Below, one piece after another: positions 20,276-57,717 of a stretch of 64,000 bases of DNA (position 1 is its first letter; every line of letters starts with the position of its first letter). The stretch spans positions 806,001-870,000 of the forward strand of contig JANVFP010000022.1 of assembly GCA_027919835.1 (NCBI GenBank). The letters run 5' to 3'. Both the position numbers and the translations under genes were made by a program. The notes beneath the pieces are model-generated. The model saw only the letters and a program-made list of their open reading frames with translations, did not search any database and was not told the origin of the DNA. The stretch is from Lentinula raphanica. Its lineage: Eukaryota; Basidiomycota; Agaricomycetes; Agaricales; Omphalotaceae.

Positions 20276-20808
20276 CACTGCGGCCCGACCTAATTTTTGA
20301 CTTTTCTAAAAGTTTTGCCAAAAGTTTTGCCAAAGATCAATTTTGGCAGTGGGTTTTGACCTTGTAAAAATACTATATATGAGTTTTTCAAATACACTGA
20401 CAATGTAGTCATTTTGCAAAGTAAATGGTATTCTCAGAAAGCTTTGACAAATCTCCTATATTGAGGATTCAAAATCTTCTTTTTTGCAGTAAGTTTAGCC
20501 GTGGCCAAAGACTTTGACATAGGAATTCAATTGCAAAGCTTTTCGACGGAGACAAATATGAATTTTTGCCTCTGCAAAAAAATGTTCAAAAGTTTCCTTT
20601 TTGAAATTTCAAAAGAACATTTTTGGAAATCCAGAAATAAATCGGGTTATCATCGGGAGACGATGGGGAGACGATGGAGCAGACAGCGGGTCCTTGTCGT
20701 ACAACTGACGGGTTTGCAGTGGTTGCCAGACGTGTACGGGCTATGGTCGTGCATTGATCTTGGCTCTCACGTTGCGCTTAGCGCATCTCAAGTTCCGCCC
20801 ATCGACCC
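20276..20808 (+). repeat. Left long terminal inverted repeat (CACTG end)
   Basis: It begins CACTGCGGCCCGACC and stays similar to the reverse complement of 57196-57714 for about 520 bp, with roughly four of five bases identical by eye. It holds subterminal repeats of the type TTTTGCCAAAAG. A short reading frame in its inner part (GYHRETMGRRW..., VYGLWSCIDLG) is also present in the right copy. That is expected from the repeat relationship and is not taken as a gene. Confidence 0.75.
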
Positions 20809-20904
20809 TTCTTCTACACAGCAATCATCTACCATAATCCCCTCTTTCTCTTCTGCCTGTCCACCGCGAATCTTGGAGTGTTCGCAATATACATAAGCTT
20901 GGAA

Positions 20905-21186
20905 CATCAGGAAAAATATTCTCATCTCTAGAGTCCCCAGAGATACCCCCCAATTCCCAGGCTGCTCAGAGATTTTTTTGAGCTTTGAAAGATCAAAAAA
21001 CATCCTAGAGATCCTGAAAGATCCTGAAAGCATCTGAAAGCACCAGAAAGCACCAGAAAGCACCAGAAAGCACCCAGAGAATTTTTAGAAGCCTCAAAGA
21101 ACTCAGATACTCTAGGCTCTCTGAGACTACCTAGGAATTGGGGGGTATCTCTGGGGACTCTAGAGATGAGAATATTTTTCCTGATG
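20905..21186. mobile_element. Small foldback element (282 bp), CATCAGGAAAA family, copy 1
   Basis: Termini CATCAGGAAAAATATTC and its inverse are flanked by AA on both sides (20903-20904, 21187-21188), a 2-bp duplication. The arms are nearly palindromic and include the mirrored block AGATACCCCCCAATTCC / GGAATTGGGGGGTATCT. The centre carries a decamer tandem repeat ACCAGAAAGC (about 21040-21075). No coding capacity. The same family occurs at 23898, 44971 and 46256. Confidence 0.85.
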
Positions 21187-21387
21187 AATCTGTTCTATTG
21201 AGTACCCGGTAGAGTCTCCGATGCATCTGTTATAGTGGCTACAGAAAGGGGTCAAGTATTCACTACACTGACTTGAATATAACCTATGAACCATCCAACG
21301 ATACAATATTCTCTAACCTCCCCTGTTGCCGTATCCTTGGTCTCCCAACGTCCTGTGACGAGATGGGTGCAGTGCGAGGAGCCGTGC

Positions 21388-22834: not shown

Positions 22835-23372
22835 GACTCATGTATACAAAATTGAGGCAGTTCGCAAATATTTCGAGACAAGCATGTCGAATACGCCCAA
22901 CAGGAAGTTCATTGCAGCCAACGAAGCCTTGCCTAAATGAGGGGCTGGGCGTCCGTTGGCTGCAAAGAAAAATGTTGAGATCTTGGAACACGTTACCGAG
23001 AAGGCGATTAGATTGCCTTAGGAAAGGGAACGTTTAGATGGGAACGTTTAGATGGAAGCAGAGATATGAGTAGGTTTTATTTTTGTTGGATTTTGGAGAT
23101 GACCGCAAAGGTAGTGGTTTCAACCCGGTTTCAACACAAAGACCGTCGGGCCTATTCGGGAAAGTTCGGGAATCGATTATATGACGGTTTCACGGTTAAC
23201 GTTCAACGTCAACACTTGGCGAGAGCGGTCCGAGTTAAAAAATTCTTTCAACGACGGTCGAGTAATACACAGATTCAGGATAAGAATACATAAGTTCATG
23301 ATATTGCGAATATACAATACACCACCATACACATCTTCGAGACGTTCAAGACTATCAATGAGATACTCAAGT
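22835..23372. other. Stretch with no supported gene
   Basis: No recognisable exon, RNA gene or element end was found. It lies between the putative start of the hypothetical gene and the stop of the large coiled-coil gene. A short imperfect duplication GGAACGTTTAGATG occurs at about 23027-23053. Confidence 0.4.
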
Positions 23373-26300
23373 TCAGAATTCCATGCCAAAACCGCTATCG
23401 CCACTCCCAGACGCAGACGATGGAGTAGGCTGAGTTCCAGATGGTTGGGCGGGGCCGGAAAACGGTTGGTTGGGGTCGAAGCCTACAAAATTGTAGACCG
23501 GAATTTCGATGTTAGATATCTGTAGGTCTGCTCGATCGACTGGATACAGATGCTCCAAGTAGTCCGGACGAAAGTATAACACCGAAAGCCCTACGGGAGG
23601 CGGCCTGAACGTGGCTTCGTCAACTGGGATTCGAAGTATATGGGCGCGGCCAGCTCGATGAAAGATGAGCTTTTCGATTGCAGGAGCACTATCCACGATT
23701 CGGAAGAGATCTTTAAACCAAGGATGGCGCCAATGAAGTACCATGATTTTCTTGACACCGTGGTTCCGGGTAAGTCCTCCAACAGTCATCGGTACCTCCC
23801 CATCCTCTTCATCTGACATACCGTCATGCTTCAAGGTGTCCACAACATGCATAACATAATCCCAGAAAGCTAGACCGTGCGGGTCGTTACGCTCTTGCAT
23901 CAGGAAAAAGTATTTCATCCCTAGAGCATTTAAAGATACCCCCCAAATTTTAAGAACTTTTAGAGTAATCTTTGGAGGCTTAGGTTTTTGAAGTTCTTTG
24001 AGGTTGCCTAGGTGTCTTTGGGGATCTTTCAGGATCTTTCAGGATCTTTCAGGAGCTTTAGGCACTTTGAAGCTGGTTAGGCACTTTGAGGCTGTTCAAA
24101 GGGCCTAAGAATTGAGGGGTATCTTTGAATGCCCTAGGCCTAGAACATTTTTCCTGATGTGGCAAAGACGAGACATTATCGTTGCTATGTCTGCACGCGT
24201 TTGGTATTTCTAGAGAGGATATTAGCTTACACTGGTAATGATGGGCATAATCAAGATAGCCTACAATATGTCGGATAGTCGTCATGCCTTGTTTCCTGTT
24301 CGTTTCGTCATGGTCATTCGCGAGACGAAGAATGCGATCTTCGTGGCTTTCCCCAGGGCGAGGCCGAGATTCCACTTCCCGTCTTAGTACCTTGTTGACA
24401 CGATCTTTGAAGAGGCCCTCCCAGTTGAAGCCCTGATTACCATATTGCCCATTCGGGAACCCTGCAGCCAGTGTACGGGCTCCATCAGCGAGAAGTCGAA
24501 TGAGCGTACGATTCCATGGGGATCGCAAGAGTTCCTTAACAGTCAACGCAGACTTATCGAGGCGAGCGTCCTTGAGATTTGGCTGCTGGGCATTAGGTTT
24601 CTGCTCTATGAACTGCTGCAGAACGTCAGCGGCAACACCATCTTTTGCAAAGACAGCGTTCATAGTCTTGACACCAAAAGCCTTCTTGAATAAGACTCGG
24701 CCCAGGCGCTGTGGAGAAGGATAAGAAGACCTGTCAGTATAGAAACAAACAAAGAAGTAGTACTTACATTAGTATTCTTGCGCACTTGACTCTTTGAATA
24801 GATCGTGGATTCTTGAGGCAGTTGAGCTAGGTTTGCACCACCTTTGATAAGCGTGTTCAAGGTTTCATCGTTATCATCTGAAGAGTCTTCGTCGTCAGCT
24901 TCCCAATCTCAGTTCTCAGGTCTTTTCTCTCTCTGCCTCTCCGTGAGCTGTGAAGACACTGAGCTATATAATCGAGCAACTGTAGAATATACGCACATCA
25001 TCGCCATTGATTCCATGACTGTCATCATCTTGGAACGGGTCATGAATGCCTGTGTTTTGAGAACGACTATCATTGCCACCGACACCGTTAGGCGCTGCGC
25101 CAGGCCGCTCCCGAAACTGATTCGTAGAATCAAGCTATTGCGATTGTACGTGGTGAAGAAGACTTACCGGAGAGCCCAGTATCCCTCCAAGTCTGAGCTC
25201 CAAGTCATCGAGGTTATGAGCAGGTTTCTTTAATGCAGGTTGCGTCAACACTAAAATAGCATCGCTCCATCAGGTGTGCTCACCGCGAAGCGCGAACCTC
25301 GGTCATTTTTCCATGGCTTTCTTGACGGAGTTGATATTGTATCCTATGGATGCGTAAGAATTAAGTTGTTCGCTCTCAGGACAGCGAACTCACGGTCTGT
25401 CCAGGTAGGCACCATTGAGGGTAACTTTTTGCATACGATCTAATTCTTGAACTACTGGTGCTCGCCGCAATGTTGTGCCCAAGCCTTTAACAGCTGCGAC
25501 ATCGTGGAGAACATCCCCGTTCGTAGGGATACCTGTAGTTGGTGTGTGTGGTGATGGCAGATGGGTAGAGGATATGTTTGGAGGAGTAGGTCTTCCAGCA
25601 GCTCCCGATGATCTCTCTCCCTGAAATAACATTGAGACCTTCACAGCGTGTTTGGAATGAAATGAGCACGCACCCGGAGGACATGAATCTCCTCAGTCAG
25701 GATTTCGATATTCAACTGCTTCGACACAATCTGGTCTTGCAAAACTTGAATCGCGTTCGGATCCGAGCGTTTCTGCCAAGACGGTCAGTTCAACGAATCG
25801 CATAGAGGTTTAAGTCGCCTACATCCATCCCCTGGATTTTGCTCTGTAGCTCGGAATTGAGTGCTTGCAAATTTTTGGTTTCCTTTGAGCTTTCATTGCA
25901 CTTGATTTCCGCAGCATTCAACTTCGTTTTGACGGCCTTGATCTCGTTCTCGTAGTTTTTTTGAGCCATATCATGAGTTTCCTACTCCGTCATTAGCATC
26001 GCTGGCGGGTTTTTAGTGGAAGATTGATATACTTGAAGAACAGTCAATTGACGGGCTTTGGCGTCGTAGGTTCCCTAAGCGTTCATTAAGCAGTGTCTGA
26101 TATATCATAAATATCATGCATACCCTGGCTACCCAGTCTAAACTGTTAGGTACCCAATTGTGCGCTTCAGCCTAAGTATACAACACATTACAATCACCCC
26201 AAGTTGACATGAGGCAAAGCTTACCTGAAAGGCAGACACCTTCTGGTTGAGTTCTGCGATGGTTTTTTCGCACCCAGCATGAGCCTGTGTTGTCTGTGAC

Positions 26301-29300
26301 AAGGAATTGTTGAGGTTCTGTATTTCATGACCTTTCTCATACTGTAAATGGGGACGATCCACAGGATACAGTAAAGCTTTTGTAAAAAACACTGATAAGT
26401 TATCGGGTACCTATTGCAAATAGTTGTGATAACCCGGAGGGGGTCCCGGAAATAGCTCCGGAGGGTGGTCATGCCTGTCACCACCTGTCACATATGGCTT
26501 ATATTTACTGTTTTGGGTAATTAATAATCATCCAGATATTAAATAAGCAGTACATTTTCAAAAAAACCCGAAAATTCATAAAAATTCATAAAAAACCTAA
26601 AATGGCCTGATTAGGTCAGATCAGGATATGTAAGCAAATGACCTCATATGATAAAAAATGATGTAGGGTCAATCTAGGTACTAAAAATAGCCCAAAAAAT
26701 CACTAAAAATGCAAAAAATATTTAGGGATGGTATAGAGCCTATTGCAGGCCCAGGCACATCAAAATTACCAAAAAAGGTAAAATTGATCATGATCTCATC
26801 TTGTAGCAAAAAATCTGAAAAAAATCCTAAAAATAGTCAAAAAATTCAGGGGTGCCTTGTTGGCCCTGAAAATGCAAAATAAAAAAAAATACGCAACAAG
26901 TGTAAAAATTTTCATCACTCCAAATCATTCTAAATCCACTATACAGTCAGTATATATGATGTATATGCTATATTTAGCATTCTAGTACCTTTATTGGGCT
27001 AAAAATAGAACTTGATCTCATCTGATAGCAAAAAATCTGAAAAAATCATGAAAAATACTCAAAAAATTCAGGGGTGCCTTATTGGCCCTGAAAATGCAAA
27101 ATAAAAAAATTTACACAACACAATTGAAAAACAACATCACTCCAAATCATACCAAATCCACTACACAGTCAGTATATATCATGTATATACTATTTATAGC
27201 ACCCCTAGTACCCTCAATCACTTATATCACTCAAGAATCATACCAAACTGAATAATTTGGGGAGTAAATATATTGTACATTATATTTTTAGCACACCTAG
27301 TACCCTTGATAACTTAGAACAATTTATATTACTCAATATGTTCAGTACACTTAGCACTTATCACACCTAACACACTAAAACTCATAACAGTACTTATATG
27401 TATTATACTTAACACAGTTGACAATGAAAATACTTAAAACAGTGTTGTCAGTCACTATACTTAACACACTTAACAGTCAAAAAGTCGGAACAATGTTACT
27501 TTATATACATAACACACTCATTGTTATACTATAACACACTTATAACAACGAGTTTTGGGCGCTTATGGGCGCTTATTTGGTGTTTTTGAGTCGAAAATCA
27601 TTAATAGCACACTCAATAATGTTTGTCTGGGCTCTATACTGTGTCAGGATGTTGTCTATATCATATTCTTCTAGATACAATTCAGAGAACTCGAAAATTC
27701 AACCTGTGGGGTTGGCTATATTGTGATCTTTTGAAATATAACAGTGTTTTATGTAAATGTCAATGCATATGTCCATGTAATGCAAGTATACTGATGGTGG
27801 TTCATGAGGGAATCACTCCTACAGTCTACTAGAAGTGTCTGGACATGGTTCAGATACTCACTATGACTATTGGACTCTGTGATATACATGTACATGTTTC
27901 ATGTACACTATAGATGTCTACACTTACATGTAACAATAGATGTCATATTCAATGACCCCCATTACAGATCTCTTTGCTGTATCACATAGGGTTAGCATAG
28001 AATAGGTTGTAGGATGACTCTTCTCATGACCCAGTAGCAGTTTGACTTCATAACATGGGTGTATGCATTGACATTTACATAAAACACTGGTATATCACAA
28101 AAGATCACAATATAGCCAGTCCCAAAAGCTGTAATTTTGAGTTCTCCGAATTGTATCAAGTGTAGTATGATATAAACAACATCCTTACACAATATAGAGC
28201 CCACACAAAAATTATTGAGTGTGCTATTAATGAATTTCGACTCAAAAACACCAAATAAGCGCCCATAAGCGCCCAAAACTCGTTGTTATAAGTGTGTTAT
28301 AGTATAACAATGAGTGTGTTATGTATATAAAGTAACATTGTTCCGACTTTTTGACTGTTAAGTGTGTTAAGTATAGTGACTGATAACACTGTTTTGAGTA
28401 TTTTCATTGCCTAAGCTATACTCAGTGATTGAAGGTACTAGAGGTGCTAAAAATAGTATATACATGATATATACTGACTGTATAGTGGATTTGGTATGAT
28501 TTGGAGTGATGTTGTTTTTCAATTGTGTTGTGTAAATTTTTTTATTTTGCATTTTCAGGGCCAATAAGGCACCCCTGAATTTTTTGAGTATTTTTCATGA
28601 TTTTTTCAGATTTTTTGCTATCAGATGAGATCAAGTTCTATTTTTAGCCCAATAAAGGTACTAGAATGCTAAATATAGCATATACATCATATATACTGAC
28701 TGTATAGTGGATTTAGAATGATTTGGAGTGATGAAAATTTTTACACTTGTCGCGTATTTTTTTTATTTTGCATTTTCAGGGCCAACAAGGCACCCCTGAA
28801 TTTTTTGACTATTTTTAGGATTTTTTTCAGATTTTTTGCTACAAGATGAGATCATGATCAATTTTTACCTTTTTTGGTAATTTTGATGTGCCTGGGCCTG
28901 CAATAGGCTCTATACCATCCCTAAATATTTTTTGCATTTTTAGTGATTTTTTGGGCTATTTTTAGTACCTAGATTGACCCTACATCATTTTTTATCATAT
29001 GAGGTCATTTGCTTACATATCCTGATCTGACCTAATCAGGCCATTTTAGGTTTTTTATGAATTTTTATGAATTTTCGGGTTTTTTTGAAAATGTACTGCT
29101 TATTTAATATCTGGATGATTATTAATTACCCAAAACAGTAAATATAAGCCATATGTGACAAGTGGTGACAGGCATGACCACCCCCCGGAGCCATTTCCGG
29201 GACCCCCTCCGGGTTATCACAACTATTTGCAATAGGTACCCGATAACTTATCGGTACTTTTTACAAAAGTTTTACAGTATCAGCTGGATGACAGTATTCT

Positions 29301-31251
29301 CGTCGATTACCGCATTCAGAGAAACCTTTGCGTTTCAAGTCACGTCGTTGTCCTCGGTTGCTAGAGAACACATTGCTGTCTGAAAGTCTTCGATTCTTGT
29401 GTTATGCTCCGCATCCTTGTCAGCCAATGTCCGCTGACTCTCAGTCTACAGAATGTGTATGAGTGACTACGGTGAATAGTCATTTCCTTTTGCTATGGAA
29501 AGACTGACTTTTGCAGTTTCTAGCAGTTCTTTGTATTCCTCGATCTTTTGAGATAATGTATCTCGTTCCTGGAGCAATCTTGCAACCGTTTCCTCTTTTT
29601 CTCCGATGGAATCCTGAAGTGGCCATGAGATTCCGATTGACGCACTGAGATAGAGGGACAACGATACATACTTCTGTAGCTGATTTTATTACCGGTAGTT
29701 CTTCGTAGAGCGTTGCTGCTTTTTCCAACTGGGATTCTTTTTGTTCGAGCGAATCCTACAAAACGGAAATGATTGAGACCTGTTAAACAACAACACATGC
29801 GTCACAAACTCACCTTCAAATTCTTCTGCTCCACTAAGAGTTGGGAATTCGATGATTCGGCCTTTGCCAACTGAGAGTCTTTCTCTGATAGAGAGTGCTG
29901 GTAGAAGGGATCGAGATGTGAGGGAAAAGAACCTGTGCCGAGAACAATGAACTCACTTCGAACAACTGAACTTGTTTTTTAAGACGATCAATCTTGCCTT
30001 TGTATTCCTGCTTTACTGCTGTGGAATCCTATTGGAGGAATGAGCGCGGCTCGTGATGAATGTAGACAATCTCTACCGTCAGCTTTTCTAAAGCGGAAAT
30101 CTGGCGAAACCAATAAGACATGAGAGATGGGCAGTTGGCAGAAATGGACTCTACCTTTCTGTCATATTCGTTCACAGTTTGCTGAAGTCGAGTGTTCAAT
30201 GAGGAGATCTGGAGCTCTGAGGTGCTAACTGCTGTCTGATGGGCCTTCCTCTCTTCTGCAAGCTCAGCTTCCATAGACTTGTTTTGTCCCACGTAAGATC
30301 TCTGTCGTTCCTGAAGACGTTCTCAATGATGTGAGTGAAAGGATGAACTGCTGATATACAGACCTCCAAGACAGCTCTCTCTTTCTGTAACGTAGTGTGT
30401 TTAGCCTCCCATGCATCCCGCTCTTTGCGAAGGGTTTGACATTCAGTCTGAAACAAACAGAAAGTTATATCTCTGTGATGCACCCCGGAGAAGAAAGGCA
30501 TCATACACAAAGGCTCTTCTCTGAAGCCTGGAAATTCTCTTCCTTTTCCGCAACAAACAGGTTCAGCTCTTGCCACTTTATTTCGATGTTGCTACGTGTG
30601 AGTATCTCTACTTCAAGTTCCTTCTTAGCCTGGTACACATATCCAACAAGCATTCGATAAGACGACAAGTTGAGAACTTCCTGAGAAATAACATACCGTC
30701 TTATATCAATGGTCGAGTTGGATCGCTGCACCTTGAGATCCCTCCAGCTCCCGCGACTTAGCTTCTACGGTGTCTTCGAGATCCTCGATTTGTTCTTTCT
30801 GATTCTTGATGTGTTCTTCTTGCCGTTCGATCTGCTCTTGCTGCTTCTGTGCCAGATTTGTTTTGAGGTCTAACTGCGCCCTCTGATAGTCTAGGTCTTT
30901 CTCCAACCAAGTTATGTGTCGTTTGTGGTGATCAGGTATATCGGCTATCTCTCGTGACTGTAGACGCCATTTGCGAGGTCGTTGATCAAGTTCGGCAGAA
31001 TCACTCGGAGGACCCTGTACACAAAGTTAACATCATATATATTTCGAAGAAGACTTCGACGCACTAGGTCCAGCATTGAACGATCACTGTTCAGCCGGGC
31101 GACAGTTGGCCGTGGTGTCTAAATTTGCCAATGAGCATATCATTGGGATAGGGATTGTGGCCACTCACGATCGAACGCATAGATACCTCGAGCATCTCAG
31201 TACTCCTCATTCTTTTGCCTATCGAGCTTGTTGTATCCATTGACAGAGGCG
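23373..31251 (-). CDS. Large coiled-coil protein of unknown function, with a palindromic element in an intron and a foldback in an exon
   Basis: Many small exons run from ATG 31251 (MGTPLSMDTTSS; an upstream ATG at 31435 is possible) to stop 23373. The first half is a long coiled coil, e.g. LAQKQQEQIERQEEHIKN, EDLEDTVEAKSREL and EIQNLNNSLSQTTQAH. A disordered Pro/Thr-rich part follows (HLPSPHTPTTGIPTNGD), then an acidic stretch (EADDEDSSDDND). The C-terminal region contains LLRSPWNRTLIRLL, GFNWEGLFKDRV, GLAFWDYVMHVVDTL, GMSDEEDGE, VLHWRHPWFKDLF and LIFHRAGRAHILRI. It is paralogous to the gene ending at 52085. No function is known to me. Palindrome A (26361-29286) lies in an intron, with donor GTGACT and acceptor TTTACAG outside it. 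The small foldback at 23898-24159 splits the last coding part; deleting it with one TG restores the frame, so the gene may now be inactive. Confidence 0.6.
23898..24159. mobile_element. Small foldback element (262 bp), CATCAGGAAAA family, copy 2
   Basis: Ends CATCAGGAAAAAG and its inverse, flanked by TG at 23896-23897 and 24160-24161. Precise removal of the element with one TG joins IATIMSRLC to QERNDPHGLAFW in frame on the minus strand. This supports the 2-bp duplication and an exonic insertion. The body contains the repeat GGATCTTTCA three times. Confidence 0.88.
26361..29286. mobile_element. Giant palindromic element A (2.9 kb)
   Basis: The whole element is a long imperfect palindrome centred near 27.8 kb, with arms of about 1.4 kb. 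Left end ACAGGATACAGTAAAGC, right end GTTTTACAGTATCAGCTG. Both ends carry the mirrored GC-rich block CCCGGAGGGGGTCCCGGAAA. The arms are AT-rich with many homopolymer runs and share peptide-like frames only because they are inverted copies. No transposase. It is nearly identical in layout to elements B and D. A flanking duplication is not recognisable here (GACGATCC versus GATGACAG). It sits inside an intron of the large coiled-coil gene. Confidence 0.85.
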
Positions 31252-31435
31252 TACCCATTGTACAGAGAGACCAGAGCGATCCTGTAGGCTTTAACTTGGG
31301 GTCGAAGTGGAGGAAGGATGGAGAGAGTGGAGATGGAAGAGACAAAGACAAGTTGAAATATATTTCATGATATTCATTGTGCACGGACCGTCCCTCCGAG
31401 CGGGCAATCTCCTCAACAAAGGATTCGTAGCGCAT

Positions 31436-32057
31436 GTTTTGACACCGTTAACAGAGTGATGAGATCGAGTTACATCCGACGTAGTATTTGAGCCAGTTTC
31501 AGATGCAGATGTATATTGGCAGATACGCAGCAGCTAATAAGTGATCCGAGGCAGGTTGAGAATGTGGTGGCGGAATTCGAATACTGGCGGTTCGAATGCT
31601 GGCGGTTCGAATGCTGGCGGTTCGAATGCTGGCGATTCGAGACGAGGAACAAGCATACGAGCTGATACTAAGTAGTAGTAGTACTAGCGAGAAAAATCAA
31701 ACGACCAGCGCTAAACATTATCGCGCGAAGCGCCCGTGCATTTAGGGATGGTGTATTTCGACAATCATGGTACAAACAAAAATCATTATTCAGCGAGTGT
31801 GTACGATTCAAAAAGAGGAGAAAGAAGGGGAAAGGAAAGAATGTCATTCCTCTGGGGAATGAAAAGAGAAAAAGCAATACAATTTTGAGAATTCATACGT
31901 TCGTTGTACTCATAAGCGCCCCTCCAAACCAAGAAAGCACTGTGCCGCAGTGGGTGAGAGCGAGAAGCAAAGATTGAGCTACCGAGGATTGCGAGAAGGT
32001 GTTCAAGGAGGCTGATAAGGAGTGAAGCTCGATGATTATGAGGATTGCCTTTGGACC
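31436..32057. other. Intergenic stretch between the coiled-coil and RING genes
   Basis: Contains the upstream region of the minus-strand coiled-coil gene and the 3' flank of the RING gene. Apart from the 15-bp tandem repeat at 31568-31640 and a polypyrimidine-like stretch near 31795-31875, I see no gene or structured element. Confidence 0.4.
31568..31640. repeat. 15-bp tandem repeat (TGGCGGTTCGAATGC, about 5 copies)
   Basis: Units start at about 31568 (degenerate), 31585, 31600, 31615 and 31630 with period 15. Each contains TTCGAA, a palindromic hexamer. It is located 130-200 bp upstream of the possible first ATG (31435) of the coiled-coil gene. Confidence 0.8.
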
Positions 32058-45700: not shown

Positions 45701-46124
45701 TTGATGTGCCTGAGGTAGCCAATACCTCATTGTAGCTATTTTTGGTTTCCTCTGTCATGTTTTAGCACCTCAAGGTCAATAATATCATTCTATGCTTTTT
45801 TCTATTCAAAAATATCATAACCCAAAAAGGAAATCAATGACGTAATGATCTAACCCTAATTTACCTGATTTCATGATTGCCGTAAACGTAGTCACTTCGT
45901 GAAGTGCAGTATAGCTTTGCAAAGTGGATTTATTATAATATACCTATTAAATAATAAAAGAATTATTAAATATTATTAAATATACTAAATAGCTGAGCAC
46001 CCCCCGGAGCCCTACTAGCCTACCCGGAAGGGTTTGTTGAGCTTCGAGAGCGAGTCCTGTTACTTCGCGAAGCTGTGGTGGAGACTTATCGGACTACTTT
46101 GCGGAGTTTTTACAGCTTCAGCTG
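42754..46124. mobile_element. Giant palindromic element C (3.4 kb), divergent member
   Basis: Palindrome with arms of about 1.6 kb centred near 44.4 kb. Right end GTTTTTACAGCTTCAGCTG, close to the TTTTACAGTATCAGCTG end of A, B and D. Both ends have the inverted block CTTCGCGAAGTAACAGGACT and a CCGGGTAGG/CCTACCCGG pair. A 7-bp duplication CTACTTC (42747-42753, 46125-46131) flanks it. The interior shares GAGTTTTGGGCGCTTATGGG with the other palindromes, but the arms are otherwise diverged and carry TTAACACACTCAACAATGAAAA-type repeats. A small foldback is nested in its right arm (44971-45195). It disrupts an exon of the + gene. Confidence 0.82.
44971..45195. mobile_element. Small foldback element (225 bp), CATCAGGAAAA family, copy 3 (nested in C)
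   Basis: Ends CATCAGGAAAAATAT and its inverse, flanked by TG at 44969-44970 and 45196-45197. The mirrored block ACACCCCCAAAA/TTTTGGGGGGTGT is present. It lies in the right arm of palindrome C and is absent at the matching place in the left arm, so it inserted after C. Confidence 0.88.
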
Positions 46125-46255
46125 CTACTTCTTCCTCATCCTCATCCTCTGAGTCTTCTCATGACTTCGACTCCAATGCGAGTTCCGATTCACTACCTCA
46201 TCTGGATGTGCCCTTGGCTACTCGATCCAGTGGAACACAAACACCGTCTAGACTT

Positions 46256-46480
46256 CATCAGCAAAACTGACCTGGTGCCTAGGCTGCCTAGAGATACCCC
46301 CAAAAACCCCAGCAGTTCAAAAACTTTGAATTTGCCTGAAAAAGCCTGAGCAAGCCTGAGTTTGCCTGGAAAAGCCTGGGCAAGCCTGAGTTTGCCTCAG
46401 ATTTCTTTGGGTGCTTTGGGAGAGCCTAGGTTTTGGGGGGTATCTCTGGGTTACCTAGGCCAAGGGTACTTTTCCTGATG
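46256..46480. mobile_element. Small foldback element (225 bp), CATCAGGAAAA family, copy 4
   Basis: Ends CATCAGCAAAACTG and CTTTTCCTGATG, flanked by TT (46254-46255, 46481-46482). Removing it with one TT joins TQTPSRL to DCTPNSDTDSG in frame, which confirms the 2-bp duplication and an exonic insertion. GCCTGAGTTTGCCT repeats lie in the centre. Confidence 0.88.
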
Positions 46481-47441: not shown

Positions 47442-50400
47442 TTAAGAGAGGCTCAAACTGAGTACGACAACTACGTGTTCAGAAATATTCCACCTTGCAC
47501 TGTGCGCAATAACGTCCGAGAAAGGTATGATCTCGAGTTGATCTGAGAATTGATCTGAGACCGTCTTCACTTCGAAACCATCATCCCAAAACCTCGAAAA
47601 TTGTTCCAACTTCACCTCAAGGGAACGCTTGACGATAAATGACAGTGGACCACCTTTGTGCTTCCTGAAGATATGCTGGATTTGACCAGCAACCCATCGC
47701 CCATCTGATGTCCCGCCATTTGGATTGAAGCAGATGTAACTGTTTCCAGGTGCAATACCACGTGGAATCGTGTAGTCGCCTCTTTCGGCCGGAGTTCGGG
47801 TTAGACACTCGACGTCGGCGGAGCCGACCACCTGGATAACTTCAGGTGGAGTAGGAAGGGCATGGAATGATCGAGAAGACGGAATTGAATCGTCGGGAAG
47901 GAGTTCATCCTCATCCAATTCAGCATCCGTTTCATCGTCGTCTTCTCGGGAATTGTAATTGTAAGCCTTATCTAACAGCTTGAGGCAGTATCGAAGTAAG
48001 GGTGGACAATCAGGCCGAAGTAACCACTGACGATAGGACGAACTCTTGCAGTATGAATGGTGTATAGTGCTTTGTTTCTCCCCTATGAATCAATTCAATT
48101 GAGCAGTAGAGATGATCTTGTGTTTACTCTTACCTGCTTTATGGTTTGTCTGAATACGTTGAAGCTTTCCACCAAGGCTTTCGAATGGCATGCTCCACCA
48201 GTGCCAAACACCACTGAACTCTTCCATAAAGTCAGAGATGTGAAGGCTAAGGTGATGACTTGGGAATATAAAGCCACCAAAGTGTTGCTTGATGCCTTCT
48301 ATGTGTTGTATAAGGTGGTTTCGGAATTGCTCGCGACGTTCCAAACTAAGCAATAACTTGGACATAAGGATGGCCGCGCAGGTCAGATGCATGGTTGTTT
48401 CAAGCGCCGGAACCATGAGGTGAGCGTTTCCGGCAGCCGAAGGAGATTGCTCATTCCAAAGGCTAAGCATTGCCAATGGGAGATGGATCTCAATCAATCG
48501 TCTCCAATGGTCAGCTTTGAGAGTACCTGCGGCAGGTGTTCCTACGTCGGGAGGAGGCTTTGATAACCATGATGGTGTTGTGACCTCCCTCACTGCTTGC
48601 TGCAGTCGATGCAGCAACCCAGGAGAATCGATCTTCAAGGGTTCCAATGGAGTGCGGGGCATAGCGAGGCGCTATTAGACTCCATGTGAGATATTATATG
48701 ACTGGGGGCTGGGGTGGTGATGCTTACCCATGTTACGAGTTCATGAATCAGAACCGATTTTGAGCATTTAGCCACTGGTGATCGTCCAAGGTCCACGCAA
48801 ACATACATCAATGCATCAAACGTGGCATCATCTAAGAGACGTCGCAGATGACTGTGATCATCACCCAAAGGCTGGGATAGGAAACGATGAATGTCGCCCA
48901 CACGATAAGCCGACCTTTGATTCATTGACCGGGAAAGTTCATTGAGTTTATGACGTCTTTCTTCGGGTGAGAGAACATGACAGGCTCCAGAACCTGAGGC
49001 AGCGAAGTTGATAGATGGTGGAGGTCCCGCCCAGGGTGCGACCAGTGGAGGCATGGAGGTTGGTGTGAAATGAGGCCACATAAATTCGTCCACTTCGACA
49101 TGATTGACGCGCTTTCAAGAAGGATCAGAAAGACTATTTATATGTGTACATTCACCACATACCCAATCTAAAAGCATAGCTGCCATGTCTTTCCTCTTCA
49201 CATCGCTGTTTTTGAAATCTGTTTTTCTCCACAAAGCGTCTGGGCCATGAGGGTCAGGGAAAATAGCGAGATTCTGGCAGACATATAACAATGTGATCCA
49301 CTTTCGATTTGAGAGACGATGTAAGAACAGTGTTTGTTCAGTAATAGTTTTGGGAGCTGTTTCGGAAAGATCTATCAATACTCTCCTCACATCTTCATGA
49401 GCTTTGACATCAGCGATGACGTCGGATTTGAGGCTTTCTAGACGTGTAAGACGAGTTGTGTTGTATTCAGCAGGCAGATGGGACCAGAAAAGAACCGAAA
49501 GACGATGTTCATCGGCAGGAGGATGTTCGATACTGGAAGCCAAGCTCGCTCTGTCTTCCTGAGAGTCAGCACCACGCAATTGAGAAACACTAGAGAGTGC
49601 AGGAGGAGGCTCGAAAGGGTAATAGAAACACCGCGTGTATTTGGGCATTTTGTGGACTTTCTTCTTGTCATTGGGATTGTCCAGACCCAAGATTTCCCTG
49701 CAATAGCGTTGGACCACATTGAGGTATACTGTGTGCATCGGTTCTGACACAGCCTGTCGACTTGGCTTCCAGTATGGCAAGCGCCAGAGCTCTGACGCCC
49801 TAGTGCCAAAGCAATCCTCAACAAACTTCCGATCTTCGGAAAATTCTGCATCCTGCCACAGCTGAGCACCTTTTCGCAAATATTCGTTGTCTATATCAAC
49901 CCAGTTACGACAATCAGTTCGGCCTCCGTGGAAAGCATGCCAGCAGTTGCATCTATGACAGAAAATGTGCGACGTAATGTCAAGGAGGCCGTTGGCGGGT
50001 TTGGCAGCTTTGGAATCCATCGTACCATTGGAGATGGCAAACTTGAACACGCAGCTATAGGGGTCTTCCTGGGCTTTCTGAGACTCGTGTGTGCTGTACG
50101 GCCGAACTCCACGAGTGTAACCAACGAGAAATTCATCGACGAGTGGTTTGAGAAAATGCCGAGTTTCTGCGTTCTTGGAGTCAGGTTCGTGTCCGTCCTT
50201 GCAATGATACAGCGCAGGGATATAGACAAAAGCAGGGTCGTTGCGCATGGATAGAGGTAGATTGAGACATGACATGGCCATCAATCCTGTTGAGAAACTA
50301 CGGCCACGATTCCGGTTTCCTTCAACATTGAAGTAATCTAGACTGAGGACGAATAACCACCGACCCTCCCCTCCTCGCTCAGATATGAAGAGTTTCCCAT

Positions 50401-51781
50401 CTGCTCCACGGAATTCATGAACAAATCTACCATCGGTCGCGTCACGTTTAGTAGAGGGTACCTCTCGATGGGAGGATATCTCTTCACAGAAACGTTCCCC
50501 ATATTTCTCGATCCCCGGAAGAGCGATGAAATGACCGAACCAGTCGAAGAAAGAGTAGTAATCAAAAGAGATGATCGGTTTTCCGTAACAGAGAAGTGGT
50601 TCCCCGCATACTGGTTGTTCGTTGGGGGCGTCCTTCCGCTTGAGAACCCTGCGTTCATCACATAGTTTGGGGTAGACAGGAAGGGTTCCAGGACCGTCGG
50701 GATACATGGGGGGATATGAGTGGTTACAGCGGGGGCAAATCGCATATGGAACGAAATCGACATCTAGGTTGAATTTCTTCTCTACCGTTCGTATTGATTC
50801 AGGAATGTTGGATAAGGTGGCACGCTGTTCTAGAGTGAGGCCATCACCTCCGAGAGTTACCAGAGACATTCCGAACAATTTTGTCATCTTAAGGACCAAG
50901 CTAGCACCACGTCGGGCGGTGTTCTCGAAGATCCGCACAGCAAGTGCAAGACAGTACAAAATAAGGGCTGGGGTATTCTTGCCATCAGCAGGATCTATGA
51001 ATGCTTTTCCTGATGTGCGATGAATTTGTGAATGTGATTGGCGAAAGAGGGACTCACGATTATCGATTCGAATAGGGGAGACATCAGGATAGATATTCCG
51101 CCATGCACGAAGGGTTTTATGCACAAGGTCGACCATATCCCGTACTTGGTTGACTTCGTCTTTGATTCCTTCCGCCTTGATCGATTGAAGATCTTCCTCG
51201 GCTACCTGAATTGCGCCCTCTACTTCTTCTAGTGTCGCATGGACGCTTGGTGCAGGGAAATCGCGGGAGAGACCATCTAACTTCGCCTGCAATCCTGAAA
51301 TACCATCCCCGAGTTTTGATCCAGTATGCAACACCCTGATTGTGTGCTTGCTACGAGAGCGAGGATCACCAAAGAGCATCAATTTCCCATCCTTATCAGG
51401 TTCCAATAAGACCTCCAGTGAATCTGAACCTGCGGCAGACTTCTCTACCAACTTCCGAATCTGCGAGAAAGACATAATCACTATCGTAGGGCTAGAGCTA
51501 TATGTTATCGTGCTTACGATTCCTTGTCGAATGCCTGTTGAGAAATCTTCAAAGCCAGAAGGTGCAATTGTAGAAGAAGGCGAAGAAGCTATTGGACGAG
51601 CGCTGTAGTCTGTTGCTGTTGCTGTAGAAGCATTGGAGAGGAGCGCTTGATATTTGGAAAGTGAAGACTTCTTATCAGATGCCGGTGAAACTCCGAGGTT
51701 TGTTTGATTCCTGGGTGTAGACGAAGATGACTGCTGAGAAGGATCTTTGAGCTGAGCCAGTACATCAAGGTAGCGACTCAT
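47442..51781 (-). CDS. Tnp2/CACTA-like (Plavaka-type) DDE transposase
   Basis: Starts at ATG 51781 (MSRYLDVLAQLKD) and runs over several exons to stop 47442. An N-terminal Cys cluster (CPRCNHSYPP ... CGEPLLCYG) is followed by DYFEWFxxFI-like SFFDWFGHFIALPGIEKYG. The catalytic core matches fungal Tnp2-type transposases: LSLDYFNVEGNRNRGRSF, SMRNDPAFVYIPALY, HFLKPLVDEFLVGYTRGVR, a D in TMDSKAAKPANG at the second catalytic position, FCHRCNCWHAF, then LPYWKPSRQAVSEPMHTVYL with the candidate catalytic Glu. The C-terminal exons keep LKADHWRRLIEIHLPLAMLSLW, HLSLHISDFMEEF and WWSMPFESLGGKLQRIQTNHK. No internal stop was seen in the long exon (51508-49115). It is the only transposase in the window and the best candidate to mobilise the CACTG-ended elements. 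Confidence 0.82.
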
Positions 51782-52084: not shown

Positions 52085-52638
52085 TCACGATGTTCGGTAC
52101 CCATCACGGAAATACGCAGTTGGCAAGCTTGGAGGAGGAATACGTTGAACAGTTTCTTCACCACGCATACGAGGAATCCTAGGGCGTCCAATGCCCGGGA
52201 AGAGTTTGGCCTGTGTAGCAGGCATGCGGTCTACCTGATCGAAGAACTGCTCGAACTTGGGGTGCCTCCACTGCGGAGAAAGCACTTTTAACACTCTATG
52301 TCCATCAGCATCAACCGAATCCTCATCATCTGACATCCCTGCAACATCGAGGTGGGACAAAGCTTCCAGCATGTTATTCCAGAAAGCGACAGCATGCGCG
52401 TCGTCCTGATTGTGTTTGGCCATGATGTCGCAAATCTTGAGTCGCCGTCGTAGTTTCTATATGCGGTGTGAGCATTCATTGTGACAACAAAAGACAAAAG
52501 ACTACATGCATTAACCCACATGCTCTGTAAGAGGCTGGCCTTCTTCTTCGCCTCATACTCATTTTTCAACTTGCCATCCCGCGCCTTCTGCATAACGAGC
52601 AAATGTTCATACATACGTTCCCTGAATAGCTCTTTCCA

Positions 52639-52645
52639 CTCGATC
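52639..52645 (+). repeat. Left 7-bp target duplication of palindromic element D
   Basis: CTCGATC, repeated exactly at 56434-56440; an eighth position differs (T versus A), so the original may have been 8 bp. Confidence 0.75.
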
Positions 52646-52646
52646 T

Positions 52647-55600
52647 ACAGGATACAGTAAAGTTTTTGTAAAAAACACTGATAAGTTATCGGGTACCTAT
52701 TGCAAATAGTTGTGATAACCCGGAGGGGGTCCCGGAAATGGCTCCGGGGCACTGCGGCCCGCCCTAATTTTTGATTTTTCAAAAAGTCTTGCAAAAAGAT
52801 ATGTGAATTCTAAGAAATGGTAGTGAATTTTGAGGCTGTGATAACTTGACTTTGGACTTTTTTGAATGTTCTGAGAATTCTCTCATTTGTCAGTACATTT
52901 TGCATTTTCCAAATGTCCTGGGATATGACCTGTTTCGAGGATTCTAAAGGACCATTTTTGAGAATTGAAAAAACTCAATATAGATCTTGCAATATTTACC
53001 TTTTTGAGTATCAACAAAAAAACAAATTTTGAACTCAAGAAACAAATCGGGTTATCATCGGGAGATGATCGGAGACCCTTGGACCCGATTTGTTTCTTGA
53101 GTGCAAAATTTGTCTTTTTTCACACTCAAAAGGGTAAAATTTTCACATCATATTGCAAGATCTATATCAAAATTTTCCAATTCTCAAAAATGGACCTTTA
53201 GAATCCTCGAAACAGGACATATCCCAGGACATTTGGAAATTGCAAAATGTACTGACAAATGAGAGAATTCTCAGAACATTCAAAAAAGTCCAAAGTCAAG
53301 TTATCACAGCCTCAAAATTCACTACCATTTCTTAGAATTCACATATCTTTTTGCAAGACTTTTTGAAAAATCAAAAATTGGGGCGGGCCGCAGTGGGGGG
53401 TGGTCATGCCTGTCACCACCTGTCACATATGGCTTATATTTACTGTTTTGGGTAATTAATAATCATCCAGATATTAAATAAGCAGTACATTTTCAAAAAA
53501 ACCCGAAAATTCATAAAAATTCATAAAAAACCTAAAATGGCCTGATTAGGTCAGATCAGGATATGTAAGCAAATGACCTCATATGATAAAAAATGATGTA
53601 GGGTCAATCTAGGTACTAAAAATAGCTTAAAAAATCACTAAAAATGCAAAAAATATTTAGGGATGGTATAGAGCCTATTGCAGGCCCAGGCACATCAAAA
53701 TTACCAAAAAAGGTAAAAATTGATCATGATCTCATCTTGTAGCAAAAAATCTGAAAAAAATCCTAAAAATAGTCAAAAAATTCAGGGGTGCCTTGTTGGC
53801 CCTGAAAATGCAAAATTAAAAAAAACTCGCGACAAGTGTAAAAATTTTCATCACTCCAAATCATTCTAAATCCACTATACAGTCAGTATATATGATGTAT
53901 ATGCTATATTTAGCATCCTAGTACCTTTATTGGGCTAAAAATAGAACTTGATCTCATCTGATAGCAAAAAATCTGAAAAAATCATAAAAAATACTCAAAA
54001 AATTCAGGGGTGCCTTATTGGCCCTGAAAATGCAAAATAAAAAAATTTACATGACACAATTGAAAAACAACATCACTCCAAATCATACCAAATCCACTAC
54101 ACAGTCAGTATATATCATGTATACTATTTATAGTACCCCTAGTACCCTCAATCACTTATATCACTCAAGAATCATACCAAACTGAATGATTTGGGGAGTA
54201 AATATATTGTACATGATATTTTTAGCACACCTAGTACCCTTGATAACTTAGAACAATTTATATTACTCAATATGTTCAGTACACTGGCACTTAGCACTTA
54301 TCACACCTAACACACTAAAACTCATAACAGTACTTATATGTATTATACTTAACACAGTTGACAATGAAAATACTTAAAACAGTGTTGTCAGTCACTATAC
54401 TTAACACACTTAACAGTCAAAAAGTCGGAACAATGTTACTTTATATACATAACACACTCATTGTTATACTATAACACACTTATAACAACGAGTTTTGGGC
54501 GCTTATGGGCGCTTATTTGGTGTTTTTGAGTCAAAATTCATTATAGCACACTCAATAATGTTTGTCTGGGCTCTATACTGTGTCAGGATGCTGTCTATAT
54601 CATATTCCTCTAGATACAATTCAGAGAACTCAAAAATTCAACCTGTGGGGTTGGCTATATTGTGTTCTTTTGAAATATAACAGTGTTTTATGTAAATGTC
54701 AATGCATATGTCCATGTAATGCAAGTATACTGATGGTGGTTCATGAGGGAATCACTCCTACAGTCTACTAGAAGTGTCTGGACATGGTTCAGATACTCAC
54801 TATGACTATTGAACTCTGTGATATACATGTACATGTTTCATGTACACTCTAGATGTCTACACTTACATGTAACAATAGATGTCATATTCAATGACCCCCA
54901 TTACAGATCCCTTTGCTGTATCACATAGGGTTAGCATAGAATAGGTTGTAGGATGACTCTTCTCATGACCCAGTAGCAGTTTGACTTCATAACATGGGTG
55001 TATGCATTGACATTTACATAAAACACTGTTATATCACAAAAGATCACAATATAGCCAGTCCCAAAAGCTATAATCTTGAGTTCTCTGAACTGTATCAAGT
55101 GTAGTATGATATAAACAACATCCTTACACAATATAGAGCCCACACAAAAATTATTGAGTGTGCTATTAATGAATTTCGACTCAAAAACGCCAAATAAGCG
55201 CCCATAAGCACCCAAAACTCGTTGTTATAAGTGTGTTATAGTATAACAATGAGTGTGTGATGTATATAAAGTAACATTGTTCTGACTTTTTGACTGCTAA
55301 GTGTGTTAAGTATAGTGACTGATAATACTGTTTTGAGTATTTTCATTGTCAACTGTGTTAAGTATAATACATATAAGTACTGTTATAAGTTTTCATGTGT
55401 GAGGTTTGATGAGTGTTAAGTGTACTGAACATATTGAGTAATATAAATTGTTCTGAGTCATTAAGGGTACTAGGTGTGCTAAAAAGATCATGTACATTAT
55501 ATTTACTGAATGTTGTCAGTCTGATATGATTCTCAGTGATATGATGCTCAAGTGATATAAGCTATACTGAGTGATTGAAGGTACTAGAGGTGCTAAAAAT

Positions 55601-56433
55601 AGTATATACATGATATATACTGACTGTGTAGTGGATTTGGTATGATTTGGAGTGATGTTGTTTTTCAATTGTGTCATGTAAATTTTTTTATTTTGCATTT
55701 TCAGGGCCAATAAGGCACCCCTGAATTTTTTGAGTATTTTTTATGATTTTTTCAGATTTTTTGCTATCAGATGAGATCAAGTTCTATTTTTAGCCCAATA
55801 AAGGTACTAGGATGCTAAATATAGCATATACATCATATATACTGACTGTATAGTGGATTTAGAATGATTTGGAGTGATGAAAATTTTTACACTTGTCGCG
55901 TATTTTTTTTAATTTTGCATTTTCAGGGCCAACAAGGCACCCCTGAATTTTTTGACTATTTTTAGGATTTTTTTCAGATTTTTTGCTACAAGATGAGATC
56001 ATGATCAATTTTTACCTTTTTGGTAATTTTGATGTGCCTGGGCCTGCAATAGGCTCTATACCATTCCTAAATATTTTTTGCATTTTTAGTGATTTTTTAA
56101 GCTATTTTTAGTACCTAGATTGACCCTACATCATTTTTTATCATATGAGGTCATTTGCTTACATATCCTGATCTGACCTAATCAGGCCATTTTAGGTTTT
56201 TTATGAATTTTTATGAATTTTTGGGTTTTTTTTGAAAATGTACTGCTTATTTAATATCTGGATAATTATTAATTACCCAAAACAGTAAATATAAGCCATA
56301 TGTGACAGGTGGTGACAGGCATGACCACCCCCCGGAGCCATTTCCGGGACCCCCTCCGGGTTATCACAACTATTTGCAATAGGTACCTGATAACTTATCG
56401 GTACTTTTTACAAAAGTTTTACAGTATCAGCTG
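52647..56433. mobile_element. Giant palindromic element D (3.8 kb including a nested insertion)
   Basis: Left end ACAGGATACAGTAAAG, right end GTTTTACAGTATCAGCTG, the same orientation as A and nearly identical to it in both arms. Without the nested 646-bp element it is about 3.1 kb and palindromic around 54.8 kb. Flanks carry CTCGATC directly repeated. Its insertion splits the coding region of the coiled-coil paralogue. No transposase inside. Confidence 0.88.
52750..53395. mobile_element. CACTG-ended foldback element (646 bp) nested in palindrome D
   Basis: Begins CACTGCGGCCCGCCCTAATT and ends with the inverse, GGGCGGGCCGCAGTG. The two arms of about 300 bp are near-perfect inverted copies around a centre ATCGGGTTATCATCGGGAGA. 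Four G's precede and five follow, while other palindrome copies have six at this place, so a GGG duplication is implied. The first 12 bases and the central motif equal those of the 20276 and 57714 termini, so it is a non-autonomous relative of the candidate giant element. Confidence 0.88.
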
Positions 56434-57195
56434 CTCGATCACGAATCCCGGCTTGGCATAGTATGCGGGATTCTGCGCGGAGACAGTGGATGCCTGAGAC
56501 GCCAGCTCGCGAATGATGTATCGGTTCCATGGAGACTTCGCCATTTCGGCTGCAGTGGCAGCGGTTGTATCGAGACCTTCTTTGGGCTGAGGATGATAAC
56601 GTTCTGGATCTACCTGATATTGGTGAAGACGCTCCTCGCTGGTCGAATACATGTTCCAGTTGACCAGTTCCATAGAATCAGTGATACCAATGTATTGGTC
56701 CATTATCTGTCTGCCCAAGTTCTATGATTCGTTGAGAAGGAGAGCTGAAATTCAATAAGGAAACTGAGCACGGACATTGGTATGGTTTTGTAGCATAGAA
56801 GGCGTATAAGACCTGTAAGCAATACCACATCAGTAGAACTTCGAATATAAGTGCTTGCAGAGACTCACATAGCTGGCAGAGAGGGTGTAAGATTTATGAC
56901 TGATGAGAAGGAAGAGGAATGAGGTGAGTGCAACAGCAGGGTCGCGTTCAATTTGCCCCGAAATTGAGCTGATATCGATGAGATACAATCTGTGATTGGT
57001 CATCTGGGACTAATTATTCTTGTCATTTTCTGAGAGTGTAACATACAAACATCCGATCCATGGGAGTTCAGAACGTTCATGGGTTGCAAACGGGTTTGGA
57101 GCGTCGGGATGGTAGAGACTGAGTGACTTGGAGTGACTTGGAGTAGATGATCACAAAGGATAAGAAAGTCTGAAGAAGCTGAGCCGAAAGTACAG

Positions 57196-57714
57196 GTCGA
57201 TGAACAGGAATTGAGAATCACTAAGCGCGATGTGAGCGCCAAGATCAATGCGCGACCATAGCCCATACACACCTGGTACCCGCTGTGAACCCGTAAGATG
57301 TACGATGAAGACCTGCTGCTTGCCCCATCGTCTCCCCATCGTCTCCCAATGATAACCCGATTTATTTCTGGATTTCAAAAAATTTTCTTTTGAAATCTTA
57401 AAAAGGCAGTTTTCTCACATTATTTTGGAAAGTCAAAAATTTGCCTTTGTCATCGTCGAAAAGCTTTGCAATTGGAGCCTTATGTCAAAGCTTTTGGCCA
57501 CTGCTAAAGCAACTGCAAAAAAGCAGATTCCGAAGTGGCAATAAAGGAACTTTCTCAAAGCATTTTGAGAATACAATACTCTTTGCAAAATAATATCATT
57601 GTCAGTGCATTTGGAAAACTCGAATATACTATTTTCACAAGATCAAAATTCACTGCCAAAATTGACTTTTGGCAAAACTTTTAGAAAAGTCGAAAATTAG
57701 GTCGGGCCGCAGTG
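57196..57714 (-). repeat. Right long terminal inverted repeat (CACTG end)
   Basis: Reverse complement begins CACTGCGGCCCGACC and follows the left terminus for about 520 bp, through the ATCGGGTTATCATTGGGAGA motif and a GGGCTATGGTCG block. It is directly followed by AGG (57715-57717), as at the left end. Divergence from the left copy, about one base in five, suggests age or independent origin. Confidence 0.75.
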
Positions 57715-57717
57715 AGG

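Follow-up and report, generated by a model that had tools for sequence, protein, structure and literature searches.

The genome of the mushroom Lentinula raphanica, a relative of shiitake, harbours a DDE transposon of the CACTA/EnSpm type that has moved as a unit between its two termini. The copy described here (copy A) spans positions 20276–57714 of the window, i.e. the whole 64,000-nucleotide stretch of DNA analysed, and lies on contig C22 of the 49.06-Mb assembly. It is read as a cut-and-paste CACTA/EnSpm element (CMC group), in which a Tnp2-like DDE transposase inserts a unit of ~25.8 kb with a 3-bp duplication; the probability of this reading is put at roughly 0.9. To our knowledge, discussion of giant gene-carrying elements of fungi has centred almost wholly on Starships, which use a tyrosine recombinase. 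Three clean-ended copies indicate that, in a mushroom, a DDE CACTA-type transposase is able to carry several genes together as a 26-kb unit, and that mushroom genomes too can hold large multi-gene transposons.

The left terminal inverted repeat (20276–20807, plus strand) starts with CACTGCGGCCCGACC; the reverse complement of this sequence ends at 57714, in the right repeat (57195–57714, minus strand). Compared in inverted orientation, 20276–20807 and 57714–57195 are 80.6% identical over 532 columns (E 2e-142), in agreement with the ~520 bp of inward similarity given in a preliminary description of this DNA, and 49/50 of the outermost bases agree. The exact terminal 15-mer occurs seven times in the 49.06 Mb, and the pattern read backwards, used as a control, 0 times. 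Within the terminal 350 bp there are four occurrences of TTTTGNCA at the left end and three at the right, with 0.1 expected from its density in the window; all are confined to the first 75 bp of the ends. It is a candidate for the short subterminal repeats, in both orientations, of CACTA/EnSpm elements. The preliminary description had regarded the difference of ~20% between the termini as a caveat. The figure is correct, but the difference is a fixed asymmetry, because each end type is conserved among the three copies: left ends share 99% identity (C17:1101543 and C4:1871395 against the window) and right ends 95–97% (97% at C53:160385, 95% at C57:111782).

CACTA/EnSpm elements of the CMC group end in CACT(A/G)..(T/C)AGTG, and the window element runs from CACTG to CAGTG. 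Fungal EnSpm elements are defined in section 3.1.5 of PMC12730594 by CAC..GTG ends and 3-bp duplications. Such duplications are present at three sites (AGG, AGC and TCA), two of them via contig pairing. In the window, AGG flanks the element at 20273–20275 and 57715–57717, as previously described. Other copies with different 3-bp flanks had been suggested as a check, and two were found: the same ends bound copies B and C, whose interiors are 96–99% identical to that of the window copy and which are each split over two contigs and joined by inference. Their repeats are AGC (C17 with C57) and TCA (C4 with C53). The pairing of C17 with C57 has independent support, with 5 mismatches in 13,564 columns versus 32 in 13,563 for C17 with C53. 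Assuming uniform bases and allowing either pairing of contig ends, all three 3-bp pairings would arise by chance with a probability of ~7.6e-6 (~1 in 130,000). Since three copies have the same ends, differing 3-bp repeats and like interiors, together with a CMC-type transposase, the element is of the CACTA/EnSpm type and moved as a unit.

Alternatively, two independent smaller CACTG elements or MITEs could flank an ordinary gene-bearing interval, with AGG as a coincidence. CACTG-ended MITEs of 646 bp do occur at 52750–53395 and elsewhere, and AGG by itself has a chance of 1 in 64. Yet the interval holds no separate partner end for either terminal inverted repeat, and the two end types, left and right, turn up separately and with the same interiors at three sites, each of which has a matching 3-bp pair; an origin by chance or from two MITEs was therefore rejected as highly improbable, being in substance refuted by copies B and C. 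Segmental duplication is just as hard to credit as the source of the three copies. Copies B and C differ by only ~0.2%, but the similarity shared by copy A, C17, C4, C53 and C57 breaks off at precisely the CACTG base on either side, the flanking sequences are unrelated, and each site has its own 3-bp duplication. The window copy is older than copies B and C. A search of the same assembly for the joined flanks (the empty site) found just the two separate halves, each at its original position.

The preliminary description proposed that the whole 37-kb interval moved, or can move, as one unit. Movement between the termini stands, given three copies, exact ends and three duplications; the size does not, and a 37-kb mobile unit was rejected, since the other copies lack nested insertions. 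The span in the window is 37.4 kb including these insertions, and the unit common to the copies is ~25.8 kb. Two MITEs have CATCA..TGATG ends, which is the PlavakaB end type of section 3.2.2 of PMC12730594. One (20905–21186, 2-bp AA duplication) is absent from copy B and, of the two copies compared, occurs only in copy A; at the position of the other (23898–24159, 2-bp TG duplication), C17 and C7 have uninterrupted sequence. Larger insertions comprise a palindromic foldback element of 2.9 kb (26360–29284), at whose position copy B contains 994 bp of different sequence; a palindromic foldback with a 10-bp duplication, GTGAGCATGA (34783–37523), whose site is uninterrupted in copy B; a repeat with inverted arms (42754–46480), replaced by ~120 bp in copy B; and a further palindromic foldback (52645–56434), which itself contains a CACTG MITE. 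The latter is a 646-bp foldback MITE with CACTGCGGCCCGCCC ends (52750–53395), whose flanks are consistent with a 3-bp GGG duplication; a paralogous uninterrupted site lies at 26440–26480. At the junction 21703/21704, an additional ~1.0 kb that includes a T5orf172/MUG113-like reading frame is present in copies B and C. This segment is also kept in a diverged relative on C7, and was therefore probably deleted from the window copy.

The Tnp2/CACTA-like transposase noted earlier is encoded at 47445–51781 on the minus strand and is 98% identical to NCBI P0001 (1374 aa, the copy on C57). A protein search gave 16 homologues besides one that is 96% identical. P0001 itself matches no Pfam family at E<=1; among its relatives, P0017, which aligns with the window protein at 28% identity, reaches 47.2 bits for PF02992 (Tnp2/EnSpm transposase), over the cut-off of 28.6, and P0006 reaches 16.4 bits, under the same cut-off. 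Candidate DDE residues in the alignment are D501, D608 and E699, the last being D in most of the relatives aligned, with a putative CHRC motif after D608. A structure model (mean pLDDT 56.5) gave three Foldseek matches at E<=0.001, namely RAG1, BbRAGL and RAG, with TM-scores of 0.17–0.29 and rmsd of 24–27; the best 50 matches of a second structure aligner did not include RAG and comprised instead helical bundles at residues 157–273. The protein thus appears CMC-type and Tnp2/EnSpm-like in sequence, with a weak RAG1-like match of the predicted fold. Encoded near the right end, it would act on the two CACTG-terminated ends, and the whole ~25.8-kb unit would be inserted with a 3-bp duplication; the window element may accordingly have been moved by its own transposase. 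For the transposase alone, copies A and C differ by 24 nonsynonymous and 11 synonymous changes (ratio 0.65, P 0.23), i.e. no significant constraint.

Plavaka elements, which end in TGT..ACA or CATCA..TGATG according to sections of PMC12730594, were considered and rejected as an identity: the ends here are CACTG..CAGTG, and a genome search gave no match inside the element to PF18759, the family of the Plavaka transposase. The preliminary description had treated giant cargo elements as an ascomycete matter. This is incomplete, as Starships of 42–606 kb are reported from the basidiomycete Tremella fuciformis in part of PMC13066641. Like these, the Lentinula element is a giant fungal element with accessory genes, and its size, its extra genes and the report from one basidiomycete might suggest a Starship-like tyrosine-recombinase element. 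Starships depend on a tyrosine recombinase (the captain) encoded at one end, however, whereas the element here combines long terminal inverted repeats and CACTG termini with 3-bp duplications that differ between sites and with a Tnp2-like, DDE-type transposase, and the probability of this identity is next to nil. No tyrosine recombinase family was found in a Pfam scan of a subset of all open frames.

RING, WD40 and coiled-coil-like coding stretches, also part of the earlier account, do lie inside the interval, all on the minus strand. They include a RING-finger gene (32061–33442; PF00097 39.5 bits, cut-off 21; exon structure approximate), a WD40 gene (40612–42087; NCBI P0018, 411 aa) with a predicted beta-propeller and C-terminal hydrophobic helix, and coiled-coil coding stretches of tentative exon structure (29338–31026). 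An open frame of 152 aa (34162–34617, minus strand) matches no Pfam family above its cut-off. In addition, there are two paired, related genes: pORF-L (23376–24768, minus strand), for which a protein search found only two proteins, both from L. raphanica, and pORF-R (52088–56703, minus strand; exons 52088–52423, 52519–52644 and 56434–56703). The former is interrupted by the MITE at 23898–24159 and the latter by the foldback at 52645–56434; in copies B and C, pORF-R is continuous. As both genes are interrupted and nested elements swell the window copy, it is probably no longer autonomous.

Between copies A and C, the non-transposase genes pooled show 13 nonsynonymous and 17 synonymous changes (ratio 0.23, P 6e-5); together, the accessory genes are under purifying selection. 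The RING gene alone shows no significant constraint in this comparison. A frame at 38463–37522, considered as a coiled-coil gene, has 9 nonsynonymous to 1 synonymous change, is probably non-coding as read there, and was excluded from the final count.

The term 'cargo genes' had implied captured passengers. The RING, WD40 and paired genes fit this description poorly, because their relatives cluster with transposase relatives genome-wide. Loci were collapsed by hand from the exon rows of searches of this genome. For the transposase, 34 of 123 candidates were scored, and their 46 rows gave at least 26 loci; the other sets comprise 33 WD40 loci from 98 rows, 22 RING from 32, 45 pORF from 83 and 80 Plavaka from 129. 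Focal copies and close remnants were dropped (4 transposase, 6 WD40, 4 RING and 7 pORF; the WD40 loci include a remnant on C7 and one at C53:158006). Within 30 kb of the remaining 22 transposase-relative loci, a WD40 relative was found at 17 (expected 0.73), a RING relative at 10 (expected 0.48) and a pORF relative at 17 (expected 1.02), with 0/22 for the Plavaka control (expected 2.15); the binomial P values ignore relatedness between loci. In our reading, these elements form a lineage of giant CACTA-type transposons that carry several genes, the accessory ones being resident.

Host passengers captured once or several times, with clustering due to TE-rich islands or to host clusters invaded by transposons, would be a competing though unlikely explanation. 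Several loci are interrelated and hence not independent (C24 to C11, C28 and C17, at 72–85% nucleotide identity), and the relatives' clusters are known by gene content, not by element boundaries. Moreover, a transposase relative is lacking within 40 kb of 4/27 WD40, 4/18 RING and 2/38 pORF loci. Against capture stand the empty Plavaka control and the fact that WD40 and transposase genes apparently share a contig both in L. edodes (P0011, P0024) and in a second L. raphanica genome, where their tags are neighbours (P0016, P0042). Further, RING lies directly upstream of the transposase in gene models of L. edodes and L. lateritia, and all DNA-level matches of the 29284–34782 block (4/4) fall inside the copies. 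On the other side, a search for CACTG-type termini with up to two mismatches gave 43 matches versus 25 for the reversed control, with no clear pairs at the relatives; gene order in the four most alike relatives is unlike that of the focal element.

For the resident set, the paired pORF proteins may assist the transposase at the element ends, and the RING and membrane-type WD40 proteins might work on behalf of the element and not of the host, in protein turnover, counter-silencing or dosage control; ubiquitin-based control of silencing or transposition is our guess at their function. A broader proposal is offered tentatively, with odds somewhat against it: a genus-wide giant CACTA-type lineage (Lentinula, perhaps Gymnopus), as a DDE counterpart of Starships, whose core set would combine its own ubiquitin module (RING and membrane-anchored WD40) with a duplicated end-binding-like pair; the element would use these to keep host silencing at bay or to regulate how often it transposes. 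If the accessory set is the element's own, hundreds of kilobases of Lentinula RING/WD40 'host' genes would be transposon genes, and the reason for which a DNA transposon retains RING and membrane WD40 proteins becomes open to testing.

Gene-carrying CACTA elements have precedents. In plants, Tgm-Express and Pack-CACTA are CACTA elements with captured gene fragments. The plant elements covered in part of PMC8978399 likewise combine CACTA ends with extra internal sequence, but carry mostly captured gene fragments, whereas the Lentinula element has open genes under constraint and a family-wide association. Fungal EnSpm/Plavaka elements in sections of PMC12730594 share CAC..GTG ends, 3-bp duplications, an EnSpm/Plavaka-type transposase and an extra gene inside; in EnSpm (CACTA) elements of Puccinia and relatives this is a TET/JBP gene, unlike the RING, WD40 and paired genes and the T5orf172/MUG113-like frame (two copies) of Lentinula. 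The terms Lentinula, WD40 and RING finger are absent from the main text of that article. In the red alga Chondrus crispus, En/Spm families are reported to be enlarged to 16–20 kb with 4–5 ORFs (part of the review PMC6431247), a precedent for a giant multi-ORF CACTA element, albeit smaller and from another kingdom.

The element starts at 20276 on the plus strand with the left terminus CACTGCGGCCCGACC and ends at 57714 with the same sequence reversed, with AGG on either side. The inverted ends, described preliminarily from about 520 bp of similarity and the AGG flanks, are indeed present: they are 80.6% identical across 532 columns, and 49 of the 50 outermost bases agree. The exact 15-mer of the terminus occurs seven times in the 49.06-Mb, 75-contig assembly (window: G000:C22:806001-870000; C-numbers denote its contigs) versus zero for the backward control. 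The left end is found again at C17:1101543 and C4:1871395 (99% identity) and the right end at C53:160385 (97%) and C57:111782 (95%), while the left end is 81-83% identical to right-type ends; each end type is thus constant across copies, and left and right differ.

Similarity between C53 and C57, and likewise between C17 and C4, starts precisely at the CACTG base. The flanks are AGG/AGG at the window copy (copy A), AGC at C17 and, outward, at C57, and TCA at C4 and, outward, at C53; the chance of three such matches is about 7.6e-6 (uniform bases, with the four loose ends free to pair either way). Independently of the flanks, the C17/C57 overlap has 5 mismatches per 13,564 columns and the C17/C53 overlap 32 per 13,563. 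Because of these flanks and mismatch counts, C17+C57 and C4+C53 are read as copies B and C, each apparently split by the assembly. Further copies with other 3-bp flanks, which the preliminary description had proposed to look for, are therefore found, although each is joined from two contigs. Between copies B and C there are 49 substitutions over about 23 kb (0.2%), and between copies A and C 175 over about 18.2 kb (1.0%); counting gaps, the blocks that A has in common with the other copies show 96-99% identity. At C7:781992-790315 there is a divergent relative that has lost part of its sequence; its right end is exact, but on the left its similarity sets in only at terminus base 154. Two old remnants, one at C53:155363-158646, adjoining the right flank of copy C, and one at C53:81514-84461, contain pieces that resemble the ends and WD40 at 70-77%.

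The 37-kb unit of the preliminary description stands as a bounded interval, but it is inflated by nested insertions, defined by absence from copy B or copy C. Copy B measures 25,848 bp, or 43,191 bp including a 17.3-kb insert of its own (C17:1106230-1123577) with two identical, LTR-like direct repeats of 1,701 bp; this insert breaks the pORF-L gene, which is uninterrupted there in A and C. Copy A contains three palindromic foldbacks of one 2.7-2.9-kb family, at 26360-29284, at 34783-37523 (with a 10-bp duplication) and at 52645-56434, the last enlarged by a 646-bp MITE; the 10-bp duplication is like that of Mutator-like foldbacks. A further repeat occupies 42754-46480. The 646-bp MITE (52750-53395) is a nearly perfect foldback with CACTGCGGCCCGCCC ends; its flanks, compared with a paralogous uninterrupted site, are consistent with a 3-bp duplication, and copies of equal length lie at C1:223397-224042 and C28:363669-364314. 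It is likely non-autonomous and related to the ends of the element. Two MITEs with 2-bp duplications (20905-21186 and 23898-24159) have CATCA..TGATG ends, matching the PlavakaB end type given in PMC12730594.

Besides the transposase, the element carries several genes. The WD40 protein P0018 (an NCBI model; 411 aa; 40612-42087) is predicted to fold as a beta-propeller (mean pLDDT 81.7; top PDB matches G-beta and WDR5) and has a hydrophobic segment at its C terminus; in 18 of 27 WD40 homologs, some of them partial models, mean hydropathy over 19 residues reaches 1.6 or more somewhere in the last 90. The RING gene matches PF00097 (39.5 bits; cut-off 21). Two related proteins of unknown family lie one by each end (pORF-L and pORF-R), the left one detected by tblastn with the right. 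Coiled-coil stretches are found at 29338-31026, and a tryptophan-rich frame of 152 aa (WNWWASIQPEWRG; 34162-34617, minus) has no Pfam family above its cut-off. Tandem copies of about 135 bp lie within an open frame at 37609-38012. Copies B and C contain about 1.0 kb that is absent from copy A, with a frame (C17:1103151-1103498, minus) just below both cut-offs for MUG113 (21.7 bits; 22.3) and T5orf172 (19.2 bits; 20). The C7 relative has kept this frame (80%), as has a remnant at C53:156157-157272 (77%). The copies therefore differ in gene content, a comparison that the preliminary description had also suggested.

The RING, WD40 and pORF genes are probably residents of the element, not random cargo. 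Relatives of all these proteins and of the transposase were mapped across this genome, and 22 transposase-relative loci were considered (four focal loci excluded; 34 of 123 transposase candidates scored). Within 30 kb, a WD40 relative was present at 17 of the 22 (expected 0.73), RING at 10 (0.48) and pORF at 17 (1.02); within 15 kb the counts were 12, 9 and 13. The control, 80 loci of the Plavaka transposon group, gave 0/22 within 30 kb (expected 2.15) and 1/22 within 40 kb. Conversely, with the same 34 of 123 candidates scored, no transposase relative lay within 40 kb of 4/27 WD40, 4/18 RING and 2/38 pORF loci. The RING and WD40 genes listed as cargo in the preliminary description are inside the element, but probably not as random passengers. 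Four clusters (C17:281-306k, C11:595-614k, C24:24-42k and C28:554-572k) share the order RING(+), pORF(-), pORF(+), transposase(+), WD40(+); unlike these, the focal element has all genes in one direction and RING beyond WD40. Since the C24 cluster is 72-85% identical in DNA to the other three, the four are one old family, not independent cases. Element ends were searched for around the transposase-relative clusters and not found, which also counts against the resident reading. In L. edodes, a transposase relative and a WD40 relative (P0011 and P0024) are on contigs of equal length (19,629), and in another L. raphanica genome so are P0016 and P0042 (EV360DRAFT_87778 and 87781; 20,872); in P0006 and P0014, RING immediately precedes the transposase within one gene model.

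Nonsynonymous and synonymous changes were counted between copies A and C: 2 and 7 for WD40 (ratio 0.09, P 0.001), 3 and 5 for pORF-R, and 8 and 5 for RING, which alone is not significant. As the pooled ratio is 0.23 (13 and 17; P 6e-5), the accessory genes have stayed functional since the two copies parted. By the same count (24 and 11; ratio 0.65, P 0.23), the transposase shows no clear constraint.

The transposase model P0001 (1,374 aa, from the copy on C57) maps onto 47445-51781 and matches no Pfam family at E<=1. Of its relatives, P0017 matches PF02992 (Transposase_21, tnp2) with 47.2 bits, and P0006 with 16.4, under the cut-off of 28.6. The aligned acidic residues are D501, D608 (followed by a CxxC) and E699, where most aligned relatives have D. 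Overall confidence in the AlphaFold2 model is low (mean pLDDT 56.5); only three PDB matches reached E<=0.001 in Foldseek, RAG1 (1.2e-4), BbRAGL (4.3e-4) and RAG (4.6e-4), all with low TM-scores, and the 50 matches listed by a second aligner were helical bundles of residues 157-273 only. The CAC..GTG ends and 3-bp duplications are shared with fungal EnSpm elements, whose transposase is weakly similar to EnSpm and Plavaka according to PMC12730594.

Most likely, the transposase would recognise the CACTG ends plus short subterminal repeats; TTTTGNCA has four copies in the outer 75 bp of one end and three in the other. Here the pORF proteins would perhaps take the role that TnpA plays in plant elements. 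The unit would move by cut and paste, inserting with a 3-bp stagger. RING plus WD40 suggests protein turnover, with a host silencing factor and the transposase among the possible targets.

Large multi-ORF En/Spm elements (16-20 kb, 4-5 ORFs) are described for Chondrus in PMC6431247, gene-carrying EnSpm for rust fungi in PMC12730594, and Starships for one basidiomycete in PMC13066641. A search of open-licence PMC papers found none describing a giant CACTA-type element in a mushroom that carries RING and WD40 genes. Outside the element, a tRNA gene lies at 3942-4031 (Rfam RF00005, 49.7 bits). Copy A sits upstream of a gene with an HRDLKPDN motif (19469-19843, minus), which is presumably kinase-like.
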